Positions 14,701-62,741 of a stretch of DNA of 64,000 nt are shown one piece after another. Position 1 is the first letter of the stretch. Each line of letters begins with the position of its first letter. The notes under the pieces are model-generated. The model was not told the DNA's origin and did not search any database. It saw only the letters and a program-made list of their open reading frames with translations. The stretch is from Siphonodentalium dalli (lineage: Eukaryota; Mollusca; Scaphopoda; Gadilida; Siphonodentaliidae), in assembly GCA_032622095.1 (NCBI GenBank), contig CP136064.1, positions 48,614,073 through 48,678,072 of the forward strand, read 5' to 3'. The translations under genes were made by a program, and so were the position numbers.

Positions 14701-17700
14701 ATTGGTACTGATCTTTATTTCATAGAGGCTGTATCATAATATGTATAAGGCAACTGGTTACATAAAACCGATGATGGAGATAAACAAAAATTATGGCCAT
14801 AATACTCAAAAATGTTTCGATAAAACAACTGGCTTCTGAGTTGCAAGAGAATCTGCATGTTAAGAGTTTTGAACCTTATTCGTTTGTACATATATGTCTT
14901 TGTGGATTATATGATCCGAATCCGATAAGACTATTGGCATTGAGATAGTAAATGTTCATTAAATTTTTCTCAAAATCGACATGCAATGCCAAATTGCCAC
15001 AATGGGACTGTGTTTCAACCTGACATCCATTTTGTGGTAAACAAGTCAATGTTCTGCTTGACGATGAAACTGTTGACTTTTACATTAGTAGAACAAGAAT
15101 TGAAGCTACAATGCCGACTAAATATACATATTCAATCCTCGTTAACCAATGCAGGTGCCCCATGGTAATAGCTCATTAGACCTGCTTGTATAAGCCGTCA
15201 AGTGATGACAACCAATTTTGAATCCTGATAAGTGCGGGTAAGTTATGTCTACAAAGGATGGATAACTTAATTTATATATCTCGTCAATTTTGTCAATTGC
15301 TCACAAATTTCTCATCCTTGACTGGAGATTCCTGAAATTTTGCGAAAACCCTGTGCCAATGCATTCTCTTCTATATGTGAGCCTCCCATAGGGAGCCTAG
15401 CATATATAACAGAATACATTGGCCTAACAATATTTACCTTGACCTTGTAAGCCAGTGGGAGGCTCACATATATAAGTGTATGCACTGGCACAGGATCTTT
15501 AATGCCACACCATCGCAACTCCCGTCGTGAAAGGGTTAAATACCGGTTGTCGATACCAAAACTATCAGAACAAATACAACGTACTTTTGGTCTCAAATTT
15601 ACAACTAATATTGTGTCAGGCATGAAATTTCTGACTGTTGAAAATTTTGGCTAAAGTTGGGTAGCGATGGTAATTATTCCCCCATTCATTCAATGTGCAA
15701 TGCACAACATAAAATCAAGATTGAGTTTAGTGTGCCTGTCATTTGCAGAAAGAGGTCAACAGAGGGTGAATTTAGTGACAATATCCTGCATACATAGATT
15801 CTATTCCTTTTATAGTTTAGTTTCCCTCCCCAAATTGACAGACAACACATTGCATAATCAGGTTCCCAATGGGTGTACATCACAATATTCACCATTTGGG
15901 AACTTCAATCTGAGTCTATGTCTCCCATGGCAGATGAGGTCATGCAGAATGAGGTCCCCAGAGGGTGAATTTGGTGATGCTAGCCCGCTATGTGGGATAG
16001 CATCAGTAAATTCACCCTCTGGGGACCTCATTCTGCAAATGACCTCAGGATTGCATAAAATTGCGAACATTCAATGGCTCCTGATCACTCCAGCGAGAGG
16101 AATGAATATTGGCTAACTCCCATTTGGGACATGTCTGTTTCTTCCAGATGGATGCTTTTAATACCATGTAAGGGTCACTGATTTTGGTCCTATCCTATCT
16201 CTATACCGTCAAATATGATTAATATAGTTTGTCGGCATTGCACTTGTTGTATTGACAGCCGGGAATAAAATATGTTTAAAATAATCTCCACGCATCATTG
16301 GCTAAGTTGTATATATACATAAATTACCATACATTAGTGGGCTTGTTTGCCTATCCATGTTCTCCTTACCAGGTGTGATTTTAAAACTATTGATAACGGA
16401 TTCAATAAGTGACTTAACCCTTTACCCAACAAACCGGCCACAACCGGCCAAATAAAGCTTCAACAGCCTAAAATATCTTCGGTCTGTCTCAATAGAACCA
16501 TACACATATGGATATCATTGGAACCGGCTCCTTGACCACATTGTGATAGTTACAGTTATGCCCTGTGCCAATGCATTCTCTTATATATGCGAGTCGACCA
16601 TAGGTCGCCTCGCATATATAAGAGAATGCATTGGCCTAAAAAAAATCTTTTTTTAACACTTTTTACCATTTTTTCTTACATTCTTTAACAATTTTATAAT
16701 TTTTAATGTGTTAAGCCAATGCATTCTCTTATATATGCGAGGCGACCTATGGTCGACTCGCATATATAAGAGAATGCATTGGCACAGGGCCCTTCTGTTG
16801 GGTAAAGGGTTAATGTATAAAGTAACCTGAAATTGTTGAAATATTTTATAAAGCTTTATGAAGCTTATGTACTTTTTTGCAACAAAATTGCTTTGCCTGA
16901 AGTCTGATACAATGTTGGTTCTCATACTGATCAAGTTTAACCGTTTCATGATGGGAGCCGCGTACTGGTGGAGCATTAAAGATACTGTGGCACTGAGTGT
17001 GCCATGCACATATAGGAGAGTCTCTTTTGGGAGAAGATGGCTCCTATTAAAAGAACAGTGAATTGGGGAACCTCGTTTACGATTTAACCACGCCTCCGTA
17101 ATTACTTCCTAGATACTGTCGCTAACTCTTGCAAGCGCTGGCGTCTGGGCGATTTATGAGGCTGTGAGCTACAGCGAGTGCATGGTGCTAATTGCCAGAA
17201 TTGTTTGGGCATAAAATAAAAAACGATATATAAAGGAGGGAAACAATATAATGTTTTGATATGATTTAAGACTGACTCAATTAAATGTGTCAGGACACGT
17301 CTGCACACAATAATAATTAATAATGTGCCAGACAAAAATTATGCGAAATTATTTCGTCCTAAGTGATTTCTTTTTATTGGGTGTGAGTGAAATTCACACG
17401 GTATATATTTAGCAAGTAACAGGCCCTACCCAGCCAGACATGTCAGTTTCTTAAAAGCAATGATAACACCAATGGCGTCAGATTCTCTCAGAAATCAGTG
17501 CACGCTCTAATAAGATTTTGCAACAATTTGACAACCAATCATCTGAGTAATGCGTCGGCTTTTATCTTTGATGTACCTGGTGTGACGCCACACAAAGGAA
17601 ACCAAAACAAACTGTATGTTTGTAGTAACATACAGAAAGATGATATCATGTGACAATTAATAAACAGTCGTCACTCTGTTTAAGGGGAATTGTATACTAA

Positions 17701-20700
17701 ATCCAGCCATTTACAGTACAGCCCTAAATAATCGACTCCTTAACCACAGCAGAATTATGGGTAATTTTTCAGTATTTAGTCGGAAATATGGCATGTTGCC
17801 ATTCATCGAAAAGCTCTCGGTGAAAGCTTTCTGATGAATGGCAACAAGCCATATTTCCGACTAAATCCTGAAATATTACCCACAATTCTGCTGTGGTTAA
17901 GGAGTCGATTATTTAGAGCATTACTGTATGGGAACATCTCCTTTTATACTCAACAGAATAATATGCAATAAATGAATAAATTTGAGCTATGGATTAGTGC
18001 AAAATACACTTGTGTGCTCTATGGACGATGCAATCAACATGGTAATTATAATTAAAACTAGAGGTGTGACTGTCCCAATGGGACTACGGATACCCCCCTG
18101 TTTTTAAAATACTAAGATGTTTCACATGTCAGTAAACATTTAGTTAAAATAATAAAATAATAAAACAGTTCCCATTGCAAGGTGTACAACCATAACCCTA
18201 ATCTTAAACCTATTGACCGAAAAATGTAGGAATAAAAGCTTGGACAAAATTATGTATGTTGCGAAAAAAATTCTAAGTCGAAAAAGGGGAATAACTCCAC
18301 ACAAAAAATGTCGGACAGACATCATAATCGCAGGTGCACAGGTTCCCATGGTACTAAATATCAGTGCTAAGATTAAAAAACATTGACCGAAAAATGTAGG
18401 AATAAAAGCTCAGACAAAATTATGCATGTTGCAAAAAAAGTTTCTAAGTCGAAAAAGGGGGATAACTCCACCAAAAAATGTCGGACAGACGTCATAATCA
18501 CAGGTTCCCATGGTGGTTGATGTCTGTACCAAGTTTCAAGGAAATTGATAAAAAAAATGACTGAGAAAAACTCCAGTCAAATTTGTGTCCACGGACGGAT
18601 GACGGACGACGGACGGATGGACGGCGGACAGACGACGGACAAGCTGACTCCAGTATACCCCCCCTAACTTCGTTGCGGGGGGGGGGGGGGTATAATTAAT
18701 CTATGACTCCAGTCATAAAATCATTTTCATTATAATTACCATGTTGTTTATCTCCTTCCTAGAGCGCTTGTCCCATTCTGCTGGTAGGTAAACCAGCTAA
18801 GATATTGGGACAGACAGATGCTGTGTTTACACAGCATCTCACAGCATCTGTCTATCCCAATATCTTAGCTGGTTCACCTACCAGCAGACTGGGATTAGTA
18901 GAGCACAAGAGTGTATTTTGCACTAATCCATGGCTCAAATTCATTAATTTATGGCATATATTCTGTTGTTTATAAAAGGAGATGGTCCCATAAATGGCCG
19001 GATTTAAGGAAATGATATAAAATATGTTGTAATTAATATTGACTTACCTCCTTCTTGACTGCACGCAAGAGCTTCTGCCGTACCTCATCATCTGAAATAT
19101 ATTTTTTTTAAAGTAATTATATTGTAATGAATGCATACATCTACATGTAAATGAATGTAATGTAGTGAACATATTTTGATGAAATCATATTTTCTAATTT
19201 TTCTGGCTTCTTCTATAATCTTTGGAATCCAGGGTTCATCTCACCACAGTCTTAGTAAATCCGCTCAATATTAGCCTTCATTCAATATGAATATTTATTG
19301 ACTGACAAGCCTGGATATAGTGTGTCTGTCAATTGCAGAATGAGGTCCCCAGAGGGTGAATTTAGTGATATTATCCAGCACAGTGGGCTAGCATCCAAGC
19401 CTTGAAATAGGGTGTCTGTCATTTGCAGAATGAGGTCCCCAGAGGGTGAATTTAGTGATGCTACCCCGCATATTTATACAGTAATACCCTAAGTAATCGA
19501 CTCCTTAACCACAGCAGAATTATGGGTAACTTTTCAGGATTTAGTCGGAAATATGGCTTGTTGCCATTCATCGGAAAGCTCTCGGGGTAGCGGGCTAGCA
19601 TCACCAAATTCACCCTCTGGGGACCTCATTCTGCTTACACCTCAACTATGCGGGGTAGCATCACTAAATTCACCCTCTGGGGACCTCATTCTGCAAATGA
19701 GACACCCTATTTCAAGGCTTGCTAGCATCACCAAATTTACCATCTGGGAACCTCATTCTGCTTAAGCCTCATCATCTGGGAAGTATCTATAGTCTCAAAT
19801 TAACTTTGTTTTTAGTTACCTTATCCCTTCTCTTCAGTTTCTATATCCCCAAATTTGCAGAATATTAAAAGCATAATCAAGGTGACTAAATGGTGAACAT
19901 CACCAACTTCAACAGGGTATCTTCAATCTGATCCTAGGTCTCCAATAGCAGTTGAAGACTGAGCAGAATGAGGTCCCCAGAGGGTGACTTTGGTGATGCT
20001 AGCCCACTGTGAGGGATAGCGTAACTAAATTTACCCTCTGGGGACCTCATTCTGCAAATGTCAGACACACTATATACATATATATCAACTTCAAATAAAA
20101 GGAGAAACTTGAGATATAAGAGTTTTAATTTAGGAATTATAAGATGACCTGATATTCATTGACAGTTCAACAAAACTACCATGTATCTACCATACTTGTG
20201 ACACAAGGTATTCCTGGAGAGAAGTCTTCGCAAAAGTTGCAACGATCTATCTGATTTTGGGACTAAACCCTGAAAGTCCAATTCTAAATTCTAAATCCAT
20301 TTTATCTATCAAATTTGTCCTGTGTTTACCATTTGTCTTACGTTGTAAAATGAAATGCTCTTCAATTTTCATACTCATACATTCTGCACACTTTGATATC
20401 TGGTTTGGGTTGCTTTTGTCTATCTTTCTCAATATTTCTATAGAATGACCATTTTCCAAAGAGCGGTTAAATATCTTGTAGACGATTTGGATACTCTAAA
20501 ATTTAGATAAACTGAAATTGTCACATCAATTTGATATCTAATTTACTACATATGTCACATACTTTTTCAAATAAATATATAAGATGGTAAGATGGTTTTT
20601 CATGAGTGCTTATGATCAGGTCATCTACATGTACATTGTCGTCCTTGATACAGTTCTGTTCAATGTTAAATTTAGTCATAGCAGACTAAACCCTTCCATG

Positions 20701-23700
20701 ATTGGAGCTTCCTGAGATTTTGCGAAAACCTGTACCAATGCATTCACTTATATATACGAGTCTCCCAAAGGGAGCCTCGCATATATAAGAGAATGAGTTG
20801 ACCTAACAATATTTACCTTGACCGTGTAAGCCAATGCATTCTCTTATATATGTCAGGCTCCATATGGGAGACTTGTATACATAAGAGAATGCACTCGAAC
20901 ATGATATTTAATGCTGCACCAGACCAGTGCAACTCACGTTACTCACGTCATCAAAGGGTTTACTTAATAGCCGAATATCCCTGATTAGATAGTATTTATC
21001 TACTTCATATATTCCATTGACGCTCGCTCATGTGGGTTTTCTCGACTAGAATGACGATGCACTAACCCTTCCATGACGGGATTTTCCTGAAATTTCAGTA
21101 GAAATTTTGCGAAATCCTGTGCCAATGCATTCTCTTATATATGCGAGTCTCCAATAGGGAGCCTCGAATATATAAGAGAATGCATTGGCCTAACAATATC
21201 TACATTGACCTTGTAAGCCAGTGCATTCTCTTATATATGCAAGGTTACCTATGTGAGACTCTCATATATAAGAGAATGCACTGGTACATGATATTTGATG
21301 CTGCATGATGGGAGTTTCCTGAAATTTTGCGAAAACCCTGTGCCAATGCATTATCTGATATATGCGAGTCTCCCATAGGGAGTCTCACATATATAAGAAA
21401 ATACATAGGCCTAACAATATTTATCTTAACCTTGTAAGTCCTGCATTCTCTTATATATGCAATGCTCCCTATGGGAATCTCACATACATGTATATAAGAA
21501 AATGCTCTAGCATATATCTTTAATGCTGCACCAACGCAGCTCCTAACATGCAAGTGTTAATATTAAATTTTTCATATAAAGCTATGGTTTGAATATGATT
21601 GACAGGTACAATATTGCATTCATGTTAATTATTGTTGCCGCTCCCAAAAACTATTCATCTAATAAAGTACACATCACCTTTGCTACAGTTGATGTGATTG
21701 AGAAATATGTCATGATGACATTTCGTTTGACCTTATTTGGAGTTCTGTGTGTGACTGCTGTTGTTATCTCACATGAGGCTAACCCTTTCCAAACTAAGTA
21801 CTCATTGACGATTAGTTCCCAAGCTTAAATATGTTTCACTCTCTGGACACTGGAATAATGTTAATCAGTAGCCTACTTAAGACACAGGGATGTGGTTAGA
21901 GGGTGTACATTTGGTGGGTATTTAACTTAAATTTCCAACTGCAACCTGCAGCCCCCCCCCCCCCCCAACCTGAACTGGACCGAAATTTCCAAGTCCAAAA
22001 TTTCCAACTAATATTGTGTATGCATGGCATATTCAACTTTTGAAAATTTTGTTAAAAGTTTACTCCCAAAACTCATGTATGTCACCACATCACCACTCAC
22101 ACCTATTTGGACCTATTGGTGAGCAAAAAAGAACCAGTTAACAATTATGAATATATCAAATCCACAGGGGCTTTCGTTAAATATATAGTTGTGAAATCAA
22201 TTTAATAATTTTTTATACACCTATTTTAATGACAAGCCAATGTGGTCGATTCAATCTAAAGAACACTGAAAATTGTTAAATTAGAGGAATGTATAGAAAC
22301 CTGAACGTATTGAAGACATAGAGGATCTCTTAACCCTTTACCCAACCAAGCGGCCAAAAACGCCCAAATAAAGCTTCAACAGCCTAAAATATCTTCGGTC
22401 TGTCTCAATAACACCATACAAATATGGATATCATTGGAACTGGTTCATTGACCACATTGTGATGGTTACAGTTATGCCCTGTGCCAATGCATTCTCTTAT
22501 ATATGCGAGTCGACCATAGGTCGCCTCGCATATATAAGAGAATGCATTGGCCTAAAAAAATATTTTATAATATTTTTCTACATTCTTTGACAATTTTATC
22601 ATTTTTAATATGTTAAGCCAATGCATTCTCTTATATATGCGAGGCGACCTATGGTCGACTCGCATATATAAGAGAATGCATTGGCACAGGGCCGTTCTGT
22701 TGGGTAAAGGGTTAATGAGTCCCAATTCTATACGAAATTTATTAACCGAGTGCACTAAATTCAATTCGAGTCTGCAAATAGTATGTCTGTCATTTGCAGA
22801 ATGAGGTCCCCAGAGGGTGAATTTAGTGATGCTATCCCGCAAGGTGGACTAGCATCACCAAATTTACCCTCTGGGAACCTCATTGTACTTAGGCCTCAAC
22901 TACTATGGGAGACCAAGGATCAGATTTAAATTCCCCAGTTGGATGTTGGTGATGTTCACCATTAGGCACCTCAATTATGTATTTTATCTTCAGAAAATTA
23001 GGGGATATAGAAGACATCCCAAAAGGGAAAAAGTGACTGAAAACAATGTTAATTTGAGACTATAGATACTTCCCAGAAGATGAGGCCTAAGCAGAATGAT
23101 GTCCCCAAAGGATGAATTTTGTGATGCTAGCCTGCTGTGCGGGGCAGCGTCACTAAATTCGCCCTCTGGGGGACCTCATTCTGCAAATGACAGACACCCA
23201 CTATTTGCAAGCATGAAGACAATGCATTATGGTTGCTAGCAACATATGACATATCCCAGACAACTACAGTAATGCTCTAAGTAATCGACTTCTTAACCAC
23301 AGCAGAATTATGGGTAACTTTGCAGGATTTAGTTGGAAATATGGCAACAAGCCATATTTCCGACTAAATCCTGAAAAGTTACCCATAATTCTGCTGTGGT
23401 TAAGAAGTCGATTACTTAGAGCATTACTGTAACTTCCCATTGGTCTCCATTTGTTAATCAAATCAGATCAATCATTTTACCTCCGGCAGGAAACCTGGAG
23501 TACTTAATTATGCTTAAGCACAATATCATTACAACCAATATGCTAGTACAATTAAGTATATACTGATTAACCGCTAATAATTTGTGCTTGATATTTTTTG
23601 TCCTCAAAGGCTCATAATCATCTATAAATTGATTACACAATCAATCATGGCAGCCCTATTATTGTCCAGCATTATTGTGTCACCATTTAAGGCATTATAT

Positions 23701-26700
23701 TATGTGATGCTATTAAAACAACCTATAGGCCATCACCAACATCTGGCATATTTTTGGTATCGGCCATTGAGAATACTCCGGATCAATATGAAAACTGCTT
23801 TGTTCTAGTTTTTGTTTATATGTTTCATCAAGAACTCAAACTGATAAAATGTCCTTAATATAGTTGGAAAAAAATAAAACAATCACAAGGCAGTCCAAAT
23901 CAACTACAGTAATGCCCGAAGTATGTTGCCTTGTTGCCATATTTCCGACTAAATCCTGAAAAATTTCCCATAATTCTGCTGTGGTTTAGGGGTCGATTAT
24001 TTAGGACATTACTGTATACATACTGAAATTCCATGATAATAATTGAGGTCCCTTAACATTGAATGTTCATGCTGGCCGGAATATTTTTATTGGCCATTTC
24101 TGAATATTTTTTTTACCATTTTTCAGAAACTTTGACCAAATTGAAAAACGAATAAGATGGCTTTATTTTTTTCTAAGTTAAAAATTTATTCTGGAAACAA
24201 CCATTGAATAAAATTTTGTTAACATAATATAGTTTTATTTTATTAGATACCAGAATAATCAGTAAATTGTAAGTCTATGAAGTTATCACACGAATCGGGA
24301 AATTCTATGTGATAACTATGCGAAAAATTAAGGGTCATAACTCGGGTAAAATGAGTAAACCGAACCCAAATTTGAATTTGAACTGTTGTGTCATGTGAGT
24401 ATTCCATTTGCCAAATTTAAAAATAATCGGATAATTAAAACTAAAGTTATCAAACAGAAACCAAAGTAATTGGCAAATTATTAGTTGACAATTACAATAA
24501 CTCCAGTAAAAATTGGCAGATCTGACATGCATATTCAACCTAGAACTGTGCCCCTAACCAATAGCATGCGACTTTAGATAAATTGTTATTCATACACAGG
24601 TGGGTAACTGCTAATTATCCCTTAACCCTTTACCCAACAAACCGGCCAAATAAAGCTTCAACAGCCTAAAATATCTTCGGTCTGTCTCAATAGAACCATA
24701 CAAATATGGATATCATTGGAACCGGCTCCTTGACCACATTGTGATAGTTACAGTTATGCCCTGTGCCAATGCATTCTCTTATATATATGCGAGTCGACCA
24801 TAGGTCGCCACACATATATAAGAGAATGCACTGGCCTAAAAAAATCTTTTTTTAACACTTTTTACCATTTTTCTTACATTCTTTAACAATTTTATAATTT
24901 TTAATGTGTTAAGCCAATGCATTCTCTTATATATGCGAGGCGACCTATGGTCGACTCGCATATATAAGAGAATGCATTGGCACAAGGCCCTTCTGTTGGG
25001 TAAAGGGTTAACAAACTAAGGGTTTCATGGAGATCTGATGATCATTTGAGAGGTTTGACAAAATGAAATTTTCTATGGCCATTTTCCAAAAAAAAAAATG
25101 ACCATTTGCCAATATAGCTAAGACAGCATAAACCCCGTCTCCTAATCCTTAACCCTTTGAGTGCCAGGTCCGATTTTTGTATCAACCCATATACCCTGTG
25201 CCAATGCATTCTCTCTTTTTTTTTACAATTTTTTACAATTTTAATATATTTTATTATATTCTTTAACAGACTTATTGTGTAGGTTTAGGGCCGATAATAT
25301 CGGCCCCTGGCACTCAAAGGGTTAAAGTCATTCATAATCTTCAAGATTCAATTTAAGCAATAGCGTTTGCAACATTCCGGGGATTAACACAGCCTGATAA
25401 ATACAGTAATGCGGCTAATGCCCTAATTAATCGACTCCTTAACCACATCAGAATTATGGGTAATTTTTCAGGATTTAGTCGGAAATATGGCTTGTTGCCA
25501 TTCATCGGAAAGCTCTCACTGAGAGCTTTCTGAAGAATGGCAACAAGCCATATTTCCGACTAAATCCTGAAAAATTACCCATAATTCTTATGTGGTTAAG
25601 GAGTCGATTAATTAGGGCATTACTGTACATAACACATTTACATACAAACTATACATGTCCCACTATACAAGTCCAGAGTGACTTACAGAAGACAGAGAAA
25701 TTTCTTAACCACTTTCAACATTCAGCACAAAATTTAGATGAACCCTCCTTATTTTCACAATTATCAGGAAGAACATAACAAACACTCTTATTGTTACATG
25801 CTCAGGTATAGCAGTACACGATTTCATGGGTTTTAGGGGGGGGTCTGAAAAATTTAAAAATAAGTACATGTGTGGCATCAAGTTATCTTTGTCATAGACC
25901 TCATCAAGAATTTGTTTAATTTTGATAGAAATGGTACATGTAGGTGTAAACTTTGACTTGTCCATACAATCTGTCATTGAGTTATGCACACACAAAATTA
26001 CCATATTTACCTATTTGATGTTATTTCAGCTAGGAGAGAAGAGTGGACCTTATTAAAGTTATTTTCTCTTTGAGGAGATAATTACTATCACTTTGCTGAG
26101 TTTTTGTAATTGTAAAGCATACACGTTGTGATATATAAGTATTTTGCCGTGTATTTATAAACCTATTCTTCCTAACTGAAATAGCAATAAATATCTCAAA
26201 GATCAGCTAAAACAGCATTGCTACTAGCATATACAGTAATGCTCTAATTAATCGACCTCTTAACCACAGCAGAATTATGGATAACTTTTCAGGATTTAGT
26301 CGGAAATATGGCTTGTTGCCATTCATCGGAAAGCTCTCCACGAGAGCTTTCCGATGAATGGCAACAAGCCATATTTCCGACTAAATCCTGAAAAGTTACC
26401 CATAATTCTGCTTTGGTTAAGAGGTCGATTAATTAGAGCATTACTGTAGGTCTCAAAGAAAAATAAATAATCTAGAACATGCATACCAACATTTTGCCTC
26501 TTTGGAAATCATACCAATACCGTTGACTGAAAAAAGTTCTGGAAGTTGTGCCACCCTCCCCCACCCCAACCCCATGCCCTTAATTGCTTCCGGTGCCACC
26601 GCATATTATCTCTTCATAAAAATATCGGAGTTATGGACATTACTTCCAGAAATATGTAAGAAGTTTATATAAGAATTATGTTGAGTATTTCTTATTTACT

Positions 26701-27368: not shown

Positions 27369-27372
27369 TTAA

Positions 27373-27754
27373 CCCTTTACCCAACAAACCGGCCAAAAAC
27401 GGCCAAATAAAGCTGCAACAGCCTAAATTATCTTGGGTCTGTCTCAATAAAACCATACAAATATGGATATCATTGGAACCGGCTCATTGACCACATTGTG
27501 ATGGTTACAGTTATGCCCTGTGCCAATGCATTCTCTTATATATGCGAGTCGACCATAGGTCGCCTCGCATATATAAGAGAATGCATTGGCCTAAAAAAAA
27601 ACTTTTTTTACCATTTTTTCTTACATTCTTTAACAATTTTATAATTTTTAATGTGTTAAGCCAATGCATTCTCTTATATATGCGAGGCGACCTATGGTCG
27701 ACTCGCATATATAAGAGAATGCATTGGCACAGGGCCGTTCTGTTGGGTAAAGGG
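27373..27754. mobile_element. Family B1 TTAA MITE upstream of SGSM
   Basis: TTAA at 27369-27372 and 27755-27758; complete double hairpin. About 480 bp upstream of the start codon. Confidence 0.85.
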
Positions 27755-27814
27755 TTAATAACAACACTGTCACACACCGGCTATATATTATTACACAGGG
27801 ATGTGCTCAGCTGA

Positions 27815-28315: not shown

Positions 28316-29299
28316 GGCTGATGGGTGGTCTATATGTTTTTTATCGGCGGATTTTGATTTTCCAGCAACTGCGCGAATTTATAGGTACCCGTACATTCGT
28401 GAAATTGATTTGCAAAAATCATGAAAATGGGCAAATATCACGATAACCTGTTGTAAAAGAGCGGGAAGAATAGATTCCGATATAGTGCAGCGGCCAAATC
28501 GAAAAAGAGCTCTAGTTTTCGAGATAACCCTACCCACGCAACTTGTTTTAGATAAGAAATACATCCTCATTACTGTTGACGAACATGAGAGTGAAAAATA
28601 TCGGAATTGGTGGTGCCATGGTGGCTATTGTCAAATCGACGATGAAGTACACCCACCAGTGACTTTTTCGAGAAATTAAATTTTGGTAACGCGAGCCTTG
28701 CGGCTATATGTCCTAACTTATTTGCCAACATTGTTAAAATTACTACATCATACCATATCTCTACTTGATATGAACAAAGTGTTGGTTAATTAGGATTTTC
28801 CTGTCATTCAGTGGAGCCGAAACATTCATTTTTTGCTGACAAATCGCTCTCTTTCACAAATATAGTTTTTCAAACATCATTCAAATGAATATTGCAATAA
28901 TGCCAAAGTATTTAATCCATATGGTGTAGCAATTATCTTACAAGTATATTTAAAAATAAGTTAACAGAAATTTAGAACGGTTTGCGAAATAATAGATTTA
29001 ACTACCCCTCCCCCAAACACGTTTTTTGTCAAAAAATTATATATTTCTGTAAATAACTTTACCAATTTTCCCAAATTGATCACAATGGGACCCAACATGA
29101 CTCATTTGCTGAAAATTTGGCCCGTGGATATTTCTTATGTGATTAAAGGCGTGTTCAGGCTTCCAGACCCTAAGTTATAACAACAACACATTTTAATGAT
29201 AACAGCTATAAATAAACATGCATCGACGTCGAATTTGTCTGAAATATTTGAAATAAGCGACATAATGACACACAGCGTATGCATAGAGTCTCACAAATA
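28316..29299. other. Upstream intergenic sequence, no gene
   Basis: No gene recognised. Confidence 0.35.
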
Positions 29300-29728
29300 T
29301 GACCCGCCATATCAAATCCAGTCGTAGGTCGGGATTTTTTTTACCCTGTGCCAATGCATTCTCTTATATAAGAGAATGCATTGTATGGGCCTAACTATTT
29401 TTTATCATTTTTTTTAAAATAAATGTTTCTTACAATTTTTAGGACATAAAATAAAAAACATCCATTACCCTGCAGGGAGCCCCACACATATATAGAAGCA
29501 TATAGAAGAGTGTCGTCTGCTCATGTTTGTCTGGGGCTCTGTATGTGTGAAATTATAAAATTGTTAAAGAATACAAGAAAAAATTATTAAAATTGTAAAA
29601 AATTGTTAGGCCAATACATTCTCTTATATATGCGAGGCGACCTATGGTCGACTCGCATATATAAGAGAATGCATTGGAACAGGGTAAAACAAATCCCGAC
29701 TTACGACTGGATTTTATATGGCGGGTCA
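29300..29728. mobile_element. MITE with TGACCCGCC ends carrying the family B hairpins
   Basis: Terminal inverted repeat of about 38 bp (TGACCCGCCATAT, then AATCCAGTCGTA and GTCGGGATTT) with CAAATA on both sides as a possible target duplication. Inside are CCCTGTGCCAATGCATTCTC with a shortened hairpin (29343-29385), a T-rich linker, and a full hairpin at 29611-29688. Ends unrelated to the TTAA elements. Confidence 0.75.
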
Positions 29729-29982
29729 CAAATATGAAACAAAATCACTTTTGTTGCCAGCCAAAGTGATTGTTAGTGTCCCTCTAAATAATAATAACAT
29801 AAAGAAAATATTATTATTATGTTCAAATGAATGTCCACTATATAGTCTCACCAAGGTGGCAGTTCTCTAAGTTTTATATACCAGTAAATCTAGCTAAATC
29901 AAAAGCAAAATAGTGTGATGTGTAGCTGAGAGAACGTTGTCATATATTCAGTTCGTTGGGATTTCAAGACTTAAATAAAAGG

Positions 29983-31082: not shown

Positions 31083-34000
31083 AGTCTGGTCGATAAAAGG
31101 TTTGACCTAGAAGAAATTTGAACTAAGTTGATATGTATACCATTTTGAAGAGGATTATATCCTCTATTACATATCCAAAATCCGCTAAAATCCGCTTTGA
31201 GCATTTTTTGTAGTCCAAGATGGCTGCCATTTCCGTTAAGTTAGTTTGATGCAATTATAGTGAGAAAGTCTTGTCATATATATACATATGTATACATTTT
31301 TGTGAATCTAAGACATAACGCCACCTTTCTGTGCCAAAATTGAAATTCATCGTCCAAATGGCAGACAAATTGGCGACCGGAAGTGATTTTTTTTACGTTT
31401 TTTATTAGTATCTTTAAGATAAGTTTCTGCTATTTGGAACTGGTTGAGAATTGTGAGTTTATTTTGTATTTAGCATGTTAACTGACAATTGAAGCATTGA
31501 AATATGCATATACGGGGTCCCAACCCCTTCCGATCACTCAAAAATTCGATATTCCAACTCAATTGTACCAAAATTGTCACTTTGGCTCAAAATGGCTGCC
31601 AAAATGGCGACCAATATATGAAAAATGGTAAATATTGTCCCAGCATACCATGCAACTGCTTACAAGTTGTGGTTGACGCACACAATTGACTATTCTGTCG
31701 TATATACATTGAATACGGACATTTCTGGTGCATATTGGTCAATTGTTACTATTTTAACCACTGAAATCACCAGAATTAATATAATTTTTATGTCACAAAC
31801 TTGACATCAAAATCGGCAAAAAACCGATGTTCAGGTTTGAACCATTTTTTTTAAGTAAAATGGAACTGTCTTTGGTATCAAATGTGTTTATTGTTTTGAT
31901 ATGTGCTAACTGTGTCACACTGAGCTGTTTTAGACAATATTGCTCAAGATGGCTTGCAAAATGGCAACCAAATTTGGTAAAATGTTGATTTGTCACATAT
32001 ATTCCGAACATTATTATCTGCTGTGGCGAAAGGGTAGTTGATTGCGACTCACTTGGTTATTAAACATGCTACTTGGTCAACTAAATGGTCTATGCTGGTT
32101 GTTCCAGTACATTAAAAGCCATGAACAGTTCATTTTAAGGGATGCTGTATGGATTTTGCCGAAAACTTCTTTTGGGATTCTGTCCATGTTATTTTAACTG
32201 AAATGGGGCAGAACGTTGAAACGGGGCTGAGATAGATCATAGTATGTGGCTAATCTGGCCAATTAGAATTAACATTGCTCAACTTAATACAGTGTTTATG
32301 TTTGTTGACCGTATGGCCATATGTGAGGTGAGTATGTATACGGGGAGTTACTGTATTCATGAATTATGTGAATAGTTGTACAATGTGTGACTATGTGGTC
32401 ATGTATGGGGTGTCCACGTTGGGATCTATAGGTATATAAGGAGTAGCTTATGGTCATGTGTGAGGTGAACATGTATACAGGGAGTGGTTGTCTGGCCATT
32501 GAAGTGGTGTATGTGCATAGCGATATTAGCTACATTGTCCATCTTTGTGTTGTGGATGTATATATGGAGTGAATGTGTGGTCATGGGTGGGATGTACATG
32601 TGTACATTGGGTGGTTGTATTGTCATGGGTGGGTGTATATGTATGTATGACAATGGATGGGGTGTATGGATAAATAGGGAGTTGTTGTATGGTTATGGGC
32701 AATGTGTATATGTGTACGTGGAATGCATGCACGGTCAACGTTGTTGAAGTGTATATGCATACCTGGAGTAAGGTTTGGTGGTCATTGGCGGACTTGTGTA
32801 TATATATAGTGACATCATTGCCATGGGTGGGATGTATATGTTTATCTGTTGTGGCTGTATTGTCATTGGTGTGTACCGGTATACAGTGAATAGCTGAATG
32901 CTCATAGATGGGTGTGTAAGAATACAGCGAGTGGCTGAATTGTCATGGTTGGGCTGTATTGCAAGTCTGAAGTGTACGAATGGCCGTGTGTGCGTGGTAA
33001 TGGTATACCTCAAAGGAATGTATGGTAATTGATGAGGTATATATACACCTGGAGTGACTCTATGGTCATGGGTTAACCAATACAGACAACCAACCAATAC
33101 AGGTAAGTATAGACTAACAAATACATGTAAGTGGGTGTCTGACAGGGTGACACATCTGTCCGGGGCAACGGAAAGCACACCTAGCCCTCCGGAATGACAA
33201 TAACAAGTCAGAATGGAGCACTGGCTGACGGACGATAAGACCTTTCCGTTTGTCAACATAAGTATATTGAAAGAAAGAATGGCCTATATCCTATATGTCA
33301 TATTCTTTCCCCACGCAATGAAGGTGATACATACATATATGGATGTCAAAAGAAAGGGGAATATGTCTGCTAGGCATATTACAGAATATTCGAGGCTAAA
33401 TATATGATGACCAAGGTCCCAATTTCTCGCAGACAAATTGATCCCCGTTCTAATGACATGAATTTTGAGGTGGAAGCTGGGTCCTGGAGCGGTTTAATGG
33501 AATTTTGAAATAGTTTTAGAATGTACCCCACAAAAACAAGATTTTATTGTATGCCAAAAGTAGAGTTAAGACACTTTTGGAAATTACTCCCAATGATTTG
33601 AAAAGATGCCAAAAATGTTTGGATAAGATCATCATCAGTTGCAGCTCGATGAATATGTGCCATACTAAACAAATGTCACATTATGTTTCGACCTGCAAGA
33701 CGCGAGCCCTTGTATATCTTGAGTAGCTATGATATGGCCATGCATGGTGTGGCCAATATGTATATAGGGAGTGCCATGTGGCAAAATTAATGGTGAGGTG
33801 AATTGGTATACAAGGAGTGATTGTATGATCGCGAGTGTGGTTTATGAGTATACAGCGAGCGGCTGAATTGTGATGGTGAGGTGTATATGCACGTTTAGTG
33901 TATGAGTGGCCGTGTGCGCGGTGCGGGACATTGGTCTATCTAGAGGGACTGTAAGGTCATTGGTGAGGTTTATATGCATACTATATATATACATATAGTG

Positions 34001-35925
34001 ACTCTATGGTTTTGGAATGGGTGTATATGTATATCTTGAGTGGCTATATGGCCATGAGTGTCGCAAATATATATACAGGGAGTGACTTTATGACCACAGG
34101 TGAGGCATATATGTATACAAGAAGTGATGTATGATCATGAATGTGGCGAAAATGTCTACCGAGAGTGACTATATTGTCATCGCTGGGGTGTATATGTATA
34201 TATTGAGTGTCTACATGACCATGCATGTGGCAAATATATAGATATACATGGAGTGACTGTATGCCCAATGGTGAGGCGAATAGGTATACAAGAGGTTACT
34301 GTATGTTCACGAATATAGTGAATATGTATACAGGTCGTGACTATATGATTATGGGTGAGGTGTAGGAGTATACATGGTGTGCCTGCATGGTTACTCACGG
34401 CTATATGGCCATGTGTTGGGTGTATGGGTATACCCATGTGTGGCTGTATAGTATAGTGGGTGAGGTGTATGTGCATAAAGCGAGTGACATGTGTTTATTT
34501 ATATGATGTTCATTTTTACATGGAGTGACTGCATGGTCATGTGTGAGTTGCACTGGTACACATTTGGGTGACTATCTCTTACCTACCGCTATAACTCAAG
34601 GATACGTTAACCGATAGAGGGATCATATCAGAGTGTTCTCCACTTTAATGGCGTTTAGTATGCAATACGAAGGAAACGGTTTTCCTGACAATAGTTTATA
34701 AGTTAATAAATTTTGATCTTAGTGGGCCAGAGTAGCCAAATAATATGACCCCTCTCAGTTCCGTTTCACCCTTCTGTCCATTTCCGTTCCAAAAATATAG
34801 ACAGAATTCCAAGTTTTTGGCAAAAATCCATACTGCATCCCATAAAATGATTTGTCATGCCTCATAATGTACTGGGACAACCCGAATGTAACATTTAGTT
34901 ATCAGTTGATTAAGTAGCATGTTTAATAACCAAGTGAGTCACAATTTGCAACCTTTTCGGAACAGCTTAGAATAATGTTCGGAATAAAACTGACAAATCA
35001 ACTTTTTACCAAATTTGGTTGCCATTTTGCAAGTCATCTTGAGTAATTTTGTCTAAAACGCCTCAGTGTCACACATTTAAGACAGATCAAAATAAAAAGC
35101 ACATTTGATACCAAAAATAGTTCCATTTTACATGAAAAAATGGTGCAAATTTATCTGAAAAGTGATTTTTTTCCCGATTTTGATGCCAAGTTTGTGATAC
35201 AAAATATCCCATAATTCTGGTAATTCCAGTGGTTAAAAAAGTTAACTTTAATCAAGGTGCATCAGAAATGTTAGTATTCAATGTATATAAGACAGAATAG
35301 TCATTTATCAACCACAACTTATAAGCCGCATCACTTACGTTGCACAGTCCTTCCAATTTTTTATGAAATATTACTATAATCGCAATGGTGATTTTTTTGT
35401 GATATGTTATACTGCATTCTGTAAAATCGAATTTTTGAATGACCGGAATGGGCGGAGACTCCACTAATGGCATATTCTATTTCCTGGATGGTTAGTTAAC
35501 ATGCTGAATTCAAAATAAAGCCACAATTCTCAACCAGTTCAAAACAGCAGAAACTTATCTTAAAGATATCAATGAAAAACGTAACATTTTCCACTTCCGG
35601 TCGCCATTTTGGCTGCCATCTTGGGCGGGGAGTTCCAATTTTGGCATAAAAATGTGGCGTTATGTCTTAGCTCCCCAAAAATGTATACATATGTATACCT
35701 ATGACAAAATATTCTAATATAATTGCATCAAATTACAACAAACTGACTTAACGGGAAATGGCAGCCATATTGGTCGCCATATTGAATTATAAAAAATGCT
35801 CAAAGCGGATTTTAGCGGATTTTTGATATGTTATAGAGGATATCTTCCTCTTCAAAATGACATATACACCAACTTAGTCCAAATTTATTCTAGGTTGACC
35901 CCTATAATTTAAGTTTATCGACCAG
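31083..35925. mobile_element. Giant fold-back element FB1
   Basis: Inverted arms of about 1.2 kb: left 31083-32285, right 34700-35925. Paired landmarks: CTGGTCGATAAA / TTTATCGACCAG at the outer ends, AAATCCGCT..GCTTTGAGCATTTTTT, ACATATGTATACATTTTTG, GACATAACGCCAC, and inner GGTTGTTCCAGTACATTA / TAATGTACTGGGACAACC. Arms differ at many sites, so the insertion is old. The loop is a degenerate minisatellite. No transposase is seen. The layout (long arms, repetitive loop) recalls Foldback/Galileo-like elements, but the class is not established. Confidence 0.75.
32286..34560. repeat. Degenerate minisatellite in the FB1 loop
   Basis: Dozens of loose copies of a unit like GAGTGACTGTATGGTCATGG followed by GTGAGGTGTATATGTATAC, spacing about 55-65 bp. 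A non-repetitive piece lies at about 33080-33720. Open frames over this region (for example His/Thr/Tyr-rich minus-strand ones) come from the repeat and are not genes. Confidence 0.75.
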
Positions 35926-45602: not shown

Positions 45603-45604
45603 TC

Positions 45605-46640: not shown

Positions 46641-46650
46641 ACAAATACTA

Positions 46651-47098
46651 CCCGATTGTCGGCGATCGACCCGGGACGACCCGACTGTCTGCGATCGACC
46701 CGGGACGACCCGATTTTTGGCGATCTACCTGGCACTACCCGATTGTCGGCGATCGACCCGGGACGACCCGATTGTCGGCGATCTACCTGGCACTACCCGA
46801 TTGTCGGCTATCGACACGGCACTAACCGATTGGATGATCCGATTGTCGGCAATCGATCCGGGACAGCCCAACGGGACGACCCGATTGTCAGTGATCGACC
46901 CGGGAGAACCCGGCGGCACCGACCCGATTGTCGGCGATCGACCCGGGACAGCTAGCCCCGATCCGATTGTCGGCGATCGACCCGGGACAGCCCGACGGCC
47001 CCGACCCGATTGTCTGCGATCGACCCGGGACAGCCCGACTGCCCCGACCCGATCGTCGGCGATCGACTCGGGAGAACCTGACGGCCCCGACCCGATTT
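46651..47098. repeat. CpG-rich minisatellite
   Basis: About fourteen copies of a 29-42 bp unit, CCCGATTGTCGGCGATCGAC followed by CCGGGAC(G/A)(A/G)CC and, in the right half, an extra GACGGCCCCGA. Each unit holds CGATCG and CCCGGG. Strongly CpG-rich in an AT-rich setting. Open frames such as (RLSAIDPGRPD)n follow the repeat and are not taken as genes. Confidence 0.9.
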
Positions 47099-48035: not shown

Positions 48036-48069
48036 TTACACACCACTAATATAGTAATATAGCTGAAAC

Positions 48070-48225
48070 AGGCATCAAATATATAAGAGAATACATTGGC
48101 CTAATATTTACCTTCATATTGTAAGCCAGAGCATTCTCTTATATATGTGAGGCTCCCTATGAGGGACTCGCATATATAAGAGAATGCACTGGCACAGGGT
48201 TTTCACATGTTGTTTAATGCTACAT
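48070..48225. mobile_element. Family B2 hairpin MITE, 5'-deleted
   Basis: Begins inside the first hairpin (AATATATAAGAGAATACATT), linker TTTACCTTCATATTGTAAGC, full second hairpin with CTCCCTATGAGGGAC loop, GGCACAGGGTTTTCA end. Confidence 0.72.
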
Positions 48226-55358: not shown

Positions 55359-55408
55359 GTATGATTTCATTTGGATAAGTGGTGGTTAAGAAAATAATAG
55401 GAAACCGC

Positions 55409-56911: not shown

Positions 56912-56944
56912 AAAACAGATGGACGGACAATCTAATTCCTACAA

Positions 56945-57322: not shown

Positions 57323-57365
57323 ATAAACCCCCCACCATAACTCGCTATGGGGGTATAATAATATG

Positions 57366-58537: not shown

Positions 58538-58541
58538 TTAA

Positions 58542-58794
58542 CTCTTTCATGAAGGGAGCTGCGCTGATGCAGCATTAAAGATCTTGTGCCAATGCATTCT
58601 CTTATATATGCGAGTCTTCCATAGGGAGCCTCGCATATTTAAGAGAAAACACTGGCTCACACGGTCAAGGTAAATATTGTTAGGCCAATGCATTCTCTTA
58701 TATATGTGAATCTCCATATTGGAGAGTTGCATATATAAGAGAATGCATTGACACAGGGTTTTCGTAAAATTTCAGGAAGTTGCAGTCATGAAAG
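58542..58794. mobile_element. Family B2 TTAA MITE, complete
   Basis: TTAA at 58538-58541 and 58795-58798. Ends CTCTTTCATGAAGGGAGC and CAGTCATGAAAG. Two hairpins with CTTCCATAGGGAGCC and CTCCATATTGGAGAG loops. Confidence 0.82.
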
Positions 58795-58798
58795 TTAA

Positions 58799-59391
58799 AA
58801 TTGAAGCCAGAGGATACATAAGAATATTCACCATCTGCCAGAAAATTTATCATAATTTGAGTTATTAGAGTGGAGTTTCAAAACAATCAAACAATCAATG
58901 TAGGGCTTTGAAATGTCAAACGATGCTACCGTGAACTAAGTTCCATGTGATGCATATAATAAACGTAACACAGACCCATGAAAAAGGATCTGAATGAGAC
59001 TATAAATCCAACCAATTTATAGGCCATCTATTACTCTACCCAACAGGAAATTTGTATATAATTAACTACTATATTGACCAATGTAAATCGTTCATAATGT
59101 GAAATGTCTACGATATTCTGGAAAATGTGGGCCAAAACAATACTTATTTCATGGTAAATGTTGAGGTCTCTTATCCTTAATTATTTTTTATCTGCATATT
59201 AATTTTTCACATAGTTTAGCAGAAGGCCCAATAAATGTCTGGATTTAGGTAGTCTGTCTTCAACACATTGACTGCCGACTGAGTTGTCTCATGCTTTTTG
59301 CATTTAAGTGAATGGGAGTCATAAATCAATGTGTTAAGATGGCACTGAGGCGAACAATTTTTTCACCTTTGTAGTTCCTCCCAACTAGGAA
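58799..59391. other. No feature seen
   Basis: Unique AT-rich sequence. Confidence 0.35.
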
Positions 59392-59395
59392 TTAA

Positions 59396-59530
59396 CCCTT
59401 TAATGATGGGAGCACCAGTAGCTACACTGGTTCAGCATTAAAGACCCTGTGCCAGTGCATTCTCTTATATATGCGAGTCTCCCATAGGGAGCCTTGCATA
59501 TATAAGAGAATGCACTGGCTTACAAGGGTA
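59396..59530. mobile_element. Family B2 MITE, left half only
   Basis: TTAA at 59392-59395, CCCTTTAATGATGGGAGCAC, one perfect hairpin (59453-59520), then lost in the linker. Confidence 0.75.
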
Positions 59531-60119
59531 ATCAACACCAGATTTTAAAGTGTTCTAACTTTCTGAGGAATTAACAAGTTTTGAGGATTTAGCTTCAATT
59601 TTAGAATATTTAAGGTTCAGAATAATTTCCTATGGTCAACAATGTCGAAATGACCACCTCCGCACCACCTTAAAAGCTATAAAGTATATGATAACAGGGC
59701 ACACCTCTGATTGTGTAATCATGCTCATGCAGTAATAGTTTATCCCTTGACATGGGTTTGCGGTACTGTGCATATAAAACTCTCACCTGTCCAGGCTTAC
59801 TGTGTGATCAATAAAGCTACTGTAAACATTACAGAAGTTATACATTACTATAAAGGCCTAAGTCATAAATTAACACAGACAGTATTGATATGAAGACTAT
59901 AATAGGTATCTCATCAGAATCTAAATTGTTACTAAGGCAAGAGACACTATGCCAGCTGCCATGATCAACAATTTTCTGTTAATCCTTTCTATACTAAATG
60001 GATTCTCCCTTCCGTTATTAAAGTATACAACATAGGAACAGTTGTTATTAATTTGGAGGGGTGTTCAGAAAATAAAATCAGATGTCAGACAGAAAAACAA
60101 ATAACAGAGCAGAATGAAA
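59531..60119. other. No feature seen
   Basis: Unique AT-rich sequence; chance frames only. Confidence 0.35.
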
Positions 60120-60344
60120 ACCCTGTGCCTGTGAAAACCCTGTGCCAATGCATTCTCTTATATATGCGAGTGGCCCATAGGGCGCCTCACATATATAAGA
60201 GAATACATTGGCCTAACAATATTTACCATGATCTTGTAAACCAGTGCATTCTCTTATATATGTGAGGGAAACTCACATATATAAGAGAATGCACTGGCAC
60301 AGGGTATTTAATGATGCACCAGCGCAGCTCCCGTCATGAAATGG
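60120..60344. mobile_element. Family B2 MITE, left end eroded
   Basis: Duplicated CCCTGTGCC start, two hairpins (60146-60213, 60238-60297, the second with a shortened loop), CAGCTCCCGTCATGAAATGG and TTAA at 60345-60348. Confidence 0.78.
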
Positions 60345-60348
60345 TTAA

Positions 60349-60696
60349 CAAGCTGGAAGATAGTCTATTTGAGTTGAGGAAACCAGAATGTTATATATAA
60401 GTTTACAAATTTCAATTAAGCAAAATGGTCAGATTTTAATTAGAACTTCGACCAGTAACGTATAACTTCTGCCTTTGTTGATCAACTTGAACATGTAAGT
60501 CAATGACTCAATTCAATCCAATGCTTGACAACCAGATAAACACATTGTATGTCATCTTGAGACTCAACTTGTCATCCAAATTGTTACAGTAAAACAAAAA
60601 CAAACAAACAAGCAAACAAATGACTGAAATGTGTGGATGTTATAATATTTGTTGAGGAAGCGAGGATACACATTCAGAAACTGGTCACACTCAGAT
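60349..60696. other. No feature seen
   Basis: Short (CAAA)n-like run at 60593-60622; otherwise unique. Confidence 0.35.
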
Positions 60697-61203
60697 ATAG
60701 ATCATACCATGAATCTCTACTCTGGCTATGTCTGTAGAGATCATGTTCCACAAAACCTGGGCACCTTTTGAAGTTCTGACAGGGAACTTTATAACATGAA
60801 GAAATAATGCAGGTATATATTTCTTAATCAATACCTGTTCCTTTTTAATGTATTTTACTGTAGGTGAAGGTCCCAGCTCGAGATTGCATGATTTAGGTGA
60901 CTTTTGTCAGCAAATTTTGCTTTGCATTGCTTAATCATGGAATTTCTCCCGGGTAATCAATTCAATATTTATTGCGATATCGGCTCACAAAAGTCCCAAA
61001 AATCATGCAATCTCGAGCTGGGACCACCCCCTTCTGTGAAAGAGTATTAAGGAACAAGTATTTAATAACGAAGTAATATTCCCTGCATAGTTTGTTCAAT
61101 GTATAAAGTTCCCGTCAAAATAACAAAAAGTTCCCAGGTTTTGAACGGGTGGAATATGATTTAGGCATAAGCCAGAGTAGAGATTCATGACATGATCTAA
61201 TTC
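60697..61203. mobile_element. Family K fold-back element, copy 2
   Basis: GATCATACCATGAATCTCTA..CTCTGGCT at the left and its complement AGCCAGAGTAGAGATTCATG at the right. Inner arms pair GGTCCCAGCTCGAGATTGCA with its complement. Similar organisation to 27815-28315. Confidence 0.78.
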
Positions 61204-61417
61204 AGATATTATTCACCCATTTTAGCTCTACAATTCAGAGCAGACACTCTTTACACTTACAAATGAGATGACATTTTATGTACACTGTGGTGTTAAAACT
61301 AATTCAACAAATTCTAGCAGTCCACGATACCCGAGTATGTTTGGAGTCAAGGTTGTAGGCACATATATACATTTCTAGGGCTGCAACAATTCGCGTCCTT
61401 GTGATACAATATATATA

Positions 61418-61630
61418 CAGTAATACCCTGATTAATCGACTCCATAACCACAGCATAATTATGGGTAACTTTTCAGGATTTAGTCGGAAATATGGCTTGT
61501 TCCATTCATCGGAAAGCTCTCCCCCGAGAGCTTTCCGATGAATGGCAACAAGCCATATTTCCGACTAAATCCTGAAATGTTACCCATAATTCTGCTGTGG
61601 TTATGGAGTCGATTAATTAGGGCATTACTG
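61418..61630. mobile_element. Family C palindromic MITE, full length
   Basis: TA-flanked; CAGTAATACCCTGATTAATC to its complement through GGAAAGCTCTCCCCCGAGAG. 213 bp. Confidence 0.87.
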
Positions 61631-61839
61631 TATATCATAACATTAACCTCATATGAGATGCATCATGATACACTGAACCAAACTTGATATATCAATTAAA
61701 ATGGGAAATATAAGATATTTTGTTGACAAATTTAGATGTATTTGCAACTGAATTTATATATCTGGTATATGATTGTATGAGGATGCTGAGTAGACCATTT
61801 ATCATCTCATATTGTTGCATCCCTGCAAGTATACACATA

Positions 61840-62003
61840 CAGTAATGCCCTAAATAATCGACTCCTTAACCACAGCAGAATTATGGGTAATTTTTCAGGA
61901 TTTAGTCGGAAATATGGTTTGTTGCCATTCATCGGAAAGCTTTCCTGAAAAATGACCCATAATTCTGCTGTGGTTAAGGAGTCGATTATTTAGGGCATTA
62001 CTG
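61840..62003. mobile_element. Family C palindromic MITE, right arm shortened
   Basis: TA-flanked; left arm complete to GGAAAGCTTTCC, right arm missing its inner half. Confidence 0.85.
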
Positions 62004-62005
62004 TA

Positions 62006-62354
62006 GCTGCATTAATACGCCCTAGATATAGCACATATACAAATTTATGATGACTCCAAACTGATCAGTGAGAATAATTGAACCAAATCAGCCCAAAACG
62101 TGCAATTTGAAGGCAAGGACCATGTATCTTTGGCCTAATCATGAGCCCACTATTCCAATTTTATATTCCAGTGAAGACCTTGAAACAAAATCTCTGTCAG
62201 TGTATTCATCAGTGACATACAATTGTAAAAGGTGGCCTAAACTGAGGTCCAGCTATTAGTCCTGCCTTTCTGCTTACAATAATTTACAAATAATTTGGCA
62301 CGTGTTGGTTCCAAAACTGTTAATTAACCCTTTATTCACTAACTACTCATTACC
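62006..62354. other. No feature seen
   Basis: Unique sequence; a 63-residue frame (62068-62259) is not recognised. Confidence 0.35.
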
Positions 62355-62358
62355 TTAA

Positions 62359-62741
62359 CCCTTTACCCATCAAACCGGCCAAATAAAGCTTCAACAGCCT
62401 AAAATATCTTCGGTCTGTCTCAATAGAACCATACAAATATGGATATCATTGGAACCGGCTCCTTGACCACATTGTGATAGTTACAGTTAGCCCTGTGCCA
62501 ATGCATTCTCTTATATATGCGAGTCGACCATAGGTCGCCTCGCATATATAAGAGAATGCATTGGCCTAAAAAAAATCTTTTTTTAACACTTTTTACCATT
62601 TTTTCTTACATTCTTTAACAATTTTATAATTTTTAATGTGTTAAGCCAATGCATTCTCTTATATATGCGAGGCGACCTATGGTCGACTCGCATATATAAG
62701 AGAATGCATTGGCACAGGGCCCTTCTGTTGGGTAAAGGGTT
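62359..62741. mobile_element. Family B1 TTAA MITE with double hairpin
   Basis: TTAA at 62355-62358 and 62742-62745; nearly identical to the copies at 16418, 24626 and 27373. Confidence 0.86.

Follow-up and report, generated by a model that had tools for sequence, protein, structure and literature searches.

A palindromic hairpin module common to short transposon families with different ends and target sites in the scaphopod Siphonodentalium dalli

INTRODUCTION

Short transposons are usually classed by their ends, and their interiors are often regarded as filler. A stretch of DNA from the scaphopod mollusc Siphonodentalium dalli raises the question of how one and the same interior comes to lie between ends that do not resemble each other. 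The stretch, which we call the window, is 64,000 nucleotides long (positions 48,614,073 to 48,678,072 of contig CP136064.1) and sits within an assembly of 2,226,750,531 bases in 9 contigs (GCA_032622095.1). It contains repeated copies of a hairpin-forming module, and a preliminary description of the window had proposed that the elements containing this module have four or more kinds of ends, its CCCTGTG edge remaining constant while the termini vary. Our analysis bears out both statements: consensus modules from different families are 91-99% identical, homology starts at or near CCCTGTG, and none of 24 end pairs from different families is more alike than shuffles. We propose, giving the idea an even chance, that the palindromic module was passed among at least four short non-autonomous families and kept as a cis-acting site that aids mobilization.

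RESULTS

Structure and abundance of the module

The module consists of CCCTGTG, a hairpin, and usually an AT-rich spacer followed by a second hairpin in the opposite orientation, the whole being palindromic. A hairpin is typically 67 bp long (the window has 2 longer ones among its 23), with 26 pairs, one T-C mismatch, 5 further pairs, and a 3-base loop. As single-stranded DNA it folds at -33.2 kcal/mol (z -14.2). With up to 3 mismatches allowed, the window contains 49 matches to the half-site CCAATGCATTCTCTTATATA, compared with 0.03 expected, and allowing up to 4 mismatches per arm yields the 23 paired hairpins. Extended to the whole genome (2.23 Gb), as the preliminary description had suggested, the search returned 432,479 half-sites and 204,238 copies of the outer edge CCCTGTGCCAATGCATTCTC. 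These and the other genome counts below allow 1 mismatch for the half-site, the edge, and the ends of families A and C, and 2 for the ends of families B and D; the reversed half-site pattern gave 0 matches, and reversed-pattern controls overall gave 0 to 4 per strand. The exact half-site had no match in viral contigs. At G000:C1:820024-920830, hairpin matches are evenly spaced at ~11.17 kb, suggestive of a large, tandemly arrayed unit that contains the module.

Carrier families, their ends, and their target sites

Most copies of the module lie in four families of short non-autonomous transposons, which we call A, B, C, and D. Family A has a TTAA target site, ends reading CCCTTTACCCAACA, and a consensus of 392 bp with two hairpins; 106,050 of its ends occur in the genome. 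Family B also inserts at TTAA, with ends reading CCCTTTCATGACGGGAGC (60,132 in the genome) and a consensus of 255 bp for its form B1, and family C, another TTAA family, has ends reading CCCTTTGAGTGCCAGG (27,913) and a consensus of 235 bp with one hairpin. Family D, with ends reading GTGACCCGCCATATCAAATCC (28,043), has a consensus of 458 bp that includes two hairpins and a middle piece. In the consensus of A and of D, the two hairpins of the pair are mutual reverse complements. The ends of A, B, and C bear CCCTTT tips, which fit the CC[C/T]T terminal motif as defined in PMC2872659; the D end, in short form GTGACCCGCC, has no such tip. The B end itself also forms a tandem array with a 37-bp period at one locus (L123, G000:C1:8060857-8061500).

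Target duplications separate D from the others. Identical 4-bp flanks were found in 28 of 29 two-ended A copies with distinct flanks (27 TTAA, 1 TTAG), in 27 of 29 such C copies (all TTAA), and in 20 of 31 D copies, all of the form AWWT (ATAT 14, ATTT 3, AAAT 2, AATT 1). When the adjoining outward 4 bp were compared as a control, identity was seen in 0 copies of A, 0 of C, and 1 of 31 of D, which indicates that D duplicates AWWT. These formal counts cover A, C, and D; the TTAA of B was seen in the listed copies. In one A copy (L011, G000:C1:3877700-3878750), the target site is a variant, TTAG, present on either side of the element. We file A, B, and C, from their target sites and tips, as putative piggyBac/TTAA-type miniature inverted-repeat transposable elements (MITEs), and D appears Sola2-like by its AWWT target site alone, the duplication that PMC3627910 reports for Sola2 elements.

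These contexts account for nearly every edge sampled. Forty loci from the start of one chromosome were picked for an exact match to the hairpin half-site and assigned by loose matching; A-D contexts hold 58 of their 61 edges, and 21 of the 22 edges in the window. An insertion met twice (L031, L089) may represent a further carrier context.

Homology ends at the module edge

Identity between consensus modules reaches 98.8% over 81 bp for A-C and for A-D, 91% over 125 bp for C-D, and 93% over 81-88 bp for B1 compared with the others. The leading interfamily alignments start 0-4 bp from CCCTGTG, while some weaker palindrome-to-palindrome alignments reach 11 bp further out or begin inside the hairpin. 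Outside the module, none of 24 pairs of ends from different families scored better than shuffles (p<=0.05); the CCCTTT tip that A, B, and C have in common is below the length that this test can register. The AT-rich spacer is part of the common sequence: the spacers of A and C and both D half-spacers exceeded 200 of 200 shuffles when aligned with that of the B-ended locus L015, as did the half-spacer D2 against A, C, and D1, and C against D1. The A and C spacers scored above 199 of 200 shuffles, and A against D1 was not above them (18 of 200 shuffles as high).

Modules and ends also disagree within family B, where the divergence of histories that the preliminary description had proposed to look for was seen at the scale of a sample. 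Seven B-ended loci (L126, L130, L131, L133, L135, L138, L139) carry the B1-type module, with a TCTCCC stem and a 29-bp spacer. Four others (L015, L027, L128, L129) have the TCGACC stem and long AT-rich spacer of the A/C/D type, and their hairpin centers match that type at 23-24 of 25 positions; the L015 spacer shows no clear kinship to the B1 spacer, 9 of 200 shuffles scoring as well. The count leaves out six loci with decayed or missing centers (L008, L010, L121, L122, L125, L127) and two that are partly B-like (L112, L113). Because B ends are found with two types of module, one of them that of A, C, and D, module and ends differ in history. Module history would join part of B to A, C, and D, and the ends unite all of B, a pattern that favors exchange.

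Nesting and rearrangement among carriers

Processes that could bring about such an exchange do occur. At L136, an A element is nested at a TTAA within the spacer of a B1 copy, and at L098, the sequence starting CCCATAGAGAGCCCCACACAG right after TTAA resembles the middle piece of family D, with a similar stretch at L065. A deletion extends into one hairpin of a D locus (L064, with a mirror duplicate at L068), and an A copy at L143 has a single hairpin. Nesting and recombination or deletion are thus observed, and recombination or nesting probably moved the module between families.

Polarity, conservation, and covariation

The hairpin is not simply a perfect palindrome. Its T-C stem mismatch is retained in 161 of 167 exact-length hairpins of the two types, and the T lies on the outer arm in 173 of 176 hairpins (the CCCTGTG set on the left), so the direction of the hairpin is fixed; both counts include duplicated loci. 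Conservation was assessed in 13 copies of A, 20 of C, and 13 of D that were found by their ends, beside B ends, or in the window. In family A, columns with shared variants number 0 of 134 in the hairpin and 24 of 149 outside (p=8e-8). Rates of singletons in the hairpin and outside were 0.53% and 1.81% for A, 1.60% and 3.63% for D, and 0.68% and 0.57% for C. Earlier, larger contrasts were discarded as too favorable, because many of the aligned copies had been selected by an exact match to the hairpin half-site.

B1-type hairpins have 14 cells with changes on both sides, compared with 7.7 in shuffles, of which 2 in 300 reach that number, and A/C/D-type hairpins have 0. We rejected conserved pairing as proof of an RNA, covariation being weak despite the DNA fold of -33.2 kcal/mol.

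Does the module move by itself?

The module was first considered as a stand-alone TTAA element. TTAA lies directly beside CCCTGTGCCAATGCATT (as TTAACCCTGTGCCAATGCATT) in 341 exact matches, compared with the 204,238 edges at one mismatch. At 20 of these 341 places, a D end was present on that side in 8, a D-type module without a D end in 4 (L104, L108, L115, L116), an A context in 1 (L110), and a B context in 1 (L102); 6 were unclear or composite (L101, L105, L112, L113, L118, L120). A stand-alone TTAA element is not supported.

A second candidate was the D-type module without D ends, as an independent insertion. Judged against part of the list of D-end matches, 35 of 100 listed edges at a T-run had an exact D end and 65 had none. 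For 20 of those 65, several of which are duplicated loci, a D end at up to 3 edits was found in 11. Among the remaining nine, L164 and L165 duplicate the L099 and L100 loci, L162 breaks off within the D end, L180 is unclear, and five (L170, L174, L177, L178, L179) are bare D-type modules that stop at the T-run or within ~6 bp of it. Together with these five, the bare modules L090 and L115 have a flank that begins at or near the T-run beside CCCTGTG, with breakpoints clustering at this point.

One site was informative. The bare module at L100 has two module-free paralogues on C2 (L203, L204), which read ...AATAAGATATGTGACGTTCTATTTTAG... and retain ATATGTGAC; the C1 copy has ~71 bp of other DNA and the bare module at this site. 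Since ATAT followed by GTGAC corresponds to a D target site and tip, the L100 module reads as a D remnant; most simply, a D insertion once occupied this site, its ends having since disappeared on C1 and a footprint remaining on C2. A search for an empty site of the bare module at L090/L007 recovered filled copies alone, and by inspection no direct repeats flank the module within the four consensus sequences. Independent movement of the module, whether as a TTAA element or as a bare D-type insertion, is therefore not supported, the one informative site (L100) pointing to a D remnant.

Copies in the window

Copies in the window are listed in Table 1. The five A elements that the preliminary description had placed at 16418, 22334, 24626, 27373, and 62359 are all present with TTAA on both sides. 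Also confirmed are the vestige in a C element at 25153, which has intact ends, TTAA on both sides, and a hairpin reduced to CCCTGTGCCAATGCATTCTCTC, and the element without TTAA at 29300, whose AAAT flanks belong with the AWWT duplication of family D. Its B copies needed some correction. Left ends were confirmed at 58542 and 59396, the start of the copy placed near 21062 is at 21066, and for the copy placed near 60120 a right end alone is present; three further B-type copies were added (15311-15539, 20691-20958, 48080-48192).

Table 1. Module-bearing copies and remnants in the window (window coordinates)
Family	Position	Strand	Features
A	16414..16813	+	TTAA both sides; hairpins 16568-16634, 16716-16782; CCCTGTG at 16561, CACAGGG ends at 16789
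A	22330..22715	+	TTAA both sides; hairpins 22484-22550, 22618-22684
A	24622..25011	+	TTAA both sides; hairpins 24766-24834, 24914-24980
A	27369..27758	+	TTAA both sides; hairpins 27523-27589, 27661-27727
A	62355..62743	+	TTAA both sides; hairpins 62498-62564, 62646-62712
C	25149..25325 (element 25153-25321)	+	Intact ends, TTAA both sides; hairpin lost, CCCTGTGCCAATGCATTCTCTC alone remains beside AT-rich spacer
D	29295..29733 (element 29299-29729)	+	AAAT duplicated both sides, not TTAA; collapsed hairpin 29351-29384, full hairpin 29611-29677, D-typical middle piece
B1, short-spacer module	15311..15539	+	Right end CGTGAAAGGG and TTAA, left end decayed; hairpin 15356-15422 and a decayed second hairpin
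B1	20691..20958	+	Hairpins 20735-20801, 20831-20897
B1 copies or duplication	21066..21510	+	Start at 21066 with 3 mismatches; hairpins 21122-21188, 21218-21284, 21343-21409, 21438-21510
B1 fragment	48080..48192	-	No recognized ends; one full hairpin 48126-48192
B1	58538..58796 (right limit approximate)	+	Left end with 2 mismatches; hairpins 58589-58655, 58685-58751
B1 left end	59392..59518	+	TTAA, 2 mismatches; one hairpin 59452-59518; right part missing
B1	60121..60348	+	Right end alone, 60327-60344 and TTAA; hairpin 60145-60211, shortened hairpin 60241-60297

Other features of the window

The window holds other inverted structures. Serial inverted arms at 31094-32082 and 34904-35906, 81-86% complementary, frame ~2.8 kb in a large foldback-like structure. 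Another family of long palindromes, by eye unlike the CCAATGC hairpin, lies at 17712-17928, 25416-25622, and 26232-26448, with arms of 103-107 nt that are 91-98% complementary and separated by 1-3 nt. Repeats starting GCAGAATGAGGTCCCCAGAGGGTGA, accompanied by an inverted copy close to the opposite side, occur at 15944-16041, 19963-20060, and 22796-22893, and also inside L067 and L102. An open frame of 371 amino acids at 2187-3302 is, by eye, what we take to be reverse-transcriptase-like, from a YYCDDF motif. The sole Rfam match in the window, a guanidine-II riboswitch just over threshold at 46668-46713, lies outside the hairpins where the translation is repetitive and is probably a chance match.

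DISCUSSION

Our results describe an interior that is common to families with unlike ends and unlike target duplications. The explanation we prefer is that the module passed between the TTAA families A, B, and C and the AWWT-duplicating family D, probably through recombination or nesting between elements, for example by insertion of one into the spacer of another. A transposase would move the elements and not the module, which would most likely have been retained as a subterminal protein-binding site in cis, predicted to help or at least tune mobilization. The fixed polarity and the retained stem mismatch suggest a function in cis. The preliminary description had raised the possibility that the hairpin is a functional unit, and this stays plausible: the data suggest that function is clearest in family A, where conservation is strong, though a mutational or conversion cause is possible as well. 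In piggyBac, two C-terminal transposase domains bind a palindromic sequence in the end, and in piggyBat a subterminal sequence lowers activity (PMC11707139); an analogous binding is predicted here.

Several observations weigh against this explanation. Shared-variant columns do not differ significantly in family C (1 of 67 in the hairpin and 6 of 79 outside, p=0.12) or in family D (6 of 134 and 14 of 174, p=0.25), a pooled test of shared columns against singletons gave p=0.06, and the length limits of the conservation test drop copies with large deletions. Some copies have lost the hairpin partly or wholly while ends and TTAA are intact (window 25149-25325, L141, L142), which means that the hairpin is perhaps not essential or was lost after insertion. 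Of the 128 listed matches to the piggyBac transposase domain (PF13843), some are paired pieces of a single gene. In 30 of the 128, the 3' flank contained no A-D end at up to 2 mismatches, and the only end-like match in these flanks was an A-like site with 3 mismatches (L057). No transposase gene with A-D ends was found in these 3' flanks (30 of 128 piggyBac matches; Sola2 transposase was not searched). Open frames in three longer stretches bounded by D ends (L061-L063) reach at most 184 amino acids. Finally, it would be odd for one module to be used by two different transposases.

Alternatively, the hairpin could be neutral, its module inherited or exchanged but its sameness arising from mutation processes in palindromes and gene conversion among very many copies instead of from a function, an idea that is possible but on the doubtful side. 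It would account for the lower frequency of singletons in A and D hairpins, for shared variants that do not differ significantly in C and D, and for the both-side changes of B1-type hairpins (14 cells compared with 7.7), which palindrome correction is also expected to produce. Yet the same correction should remove the T-C mismatch, which 161 of 167 hairpins keep, with outward polarity in 173 of 176, and singleton rates in family C are alike inside and outside the hairpin (0.68%, 0.57%). Distinctly doubtful, to our judgment, is the notion that the hairpin pair is a portable, transposase-independent amplification signal that recruits a host or shared factor; elements of different superfamilies would have acquired it serially, and its carriers would then have burst to tens of thousands of copies.

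It is unlikely that the various ends all descend by divergence from a single ancestral terminus, with no transfer of a module. A, B, and C do have TTAA and the CCCTTT tip in common, and coral CMITEs may be such a radiation. But D lacks the tip and duplicates AWWT, no end pair out of 24 rises above shuffles while the adjoining modules of A, C, and D agree at 91-99%, and B ends carry two types of module. The preliminary description had also considered that the hairpin might itself be a mobile unit; the module, bounded by CCCTGTG...CACAGGG, would then insert into other transposons. Its edges are indeed sharp, like the ends of inverted repeats, and some D-type modules without D ends stop at the T-run beside CCCTGTG; nevertheless, with 341 TTAA-adjoining edges against 204,238, 58 of 61 edges in A-D contexts, no flanking direct repeat seen in the four consensus sequences, and L100 reading as a D remnant, we consider this very improbable.

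Under our preferred explanation, of a module exchanged among families and kept as a cis site, the hairpin unit is a reusable part that may help short elements spread. The interior is here the part common across families, in TTAA and in AWWT elements, and in family A it is the conserved part as well. If the module does aid mobilization, this would help explain the very high copy numbers and would offer a testable cis element for transposition. There is also a practical warning, which is that repeat classification by likeness of interiors would fuse families with different ends.

The preliminary description called the arrangement unusual, and rightly so, although it has a precedent. In the literature compared, a like situation appears only in the paper on CMITEs of Acropora corals (PMC2872659), and we make no claim that a crossing to AWWT elements is absent from print. 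CMITEs are short TTAA-flanked elements that have different terminal inverted repeats with CC[C/T]T-type tips, mostly starting CCCTTT, and a 75-bp interior whose conservation between families exceeds that of the ends; the paper also describes tandem arrays, a new element created by a nested insertion, and one member with the interior of another family. The differences are in size (~100 bp compared with consensus lengths of 235-458 bp here), in number (an estimated 1,600 copies in one species compared with 204,238 edges), in the strong hairpin found here, usually paired in inversion, where the passages on CMITEs do not mention a palindrome, and in target site, CMITEs being flanked by TTAA as are A, C, and the listed B copies, but not D, which has AWWT. 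On this comparison, which draws on the description of the 75-bp interior, we regard the whole as a modular MITE of the CMITE kind that is not a CMITE by its length and TTAA features; relative to CMITEs, its novelty lies in the AWWT family, the pairing of the hairpins, and the scale. Other systems resemble it in single respects. The MER6 MITE with the V domain of short interspersed nuclear elements (PMC6887750) likewise has a conserved domain in mobile elements moved by unrelated machinery, but that domain comes from a retrotransposon, whereas both kinds of carrier here are short DNA transposons and the module is palindromic. Sola2-Fanzor chimeras (PMC3627910) are AWWT-duplicating Sola2 elements with one common part and the rest different, but they encode proteins, whereas D is short and noncoding. 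Finally, piggyBac and piggyBat (PMC11707139) have palindromic sites within their ends that paired C-terminal transposase domains bind; these palindromes are much smaller (19 bp in piggyBac and, for one of those in piggyBat, 14 bp) and each is confined to a single transposon, whereas the module described here recurs across families with different ends.

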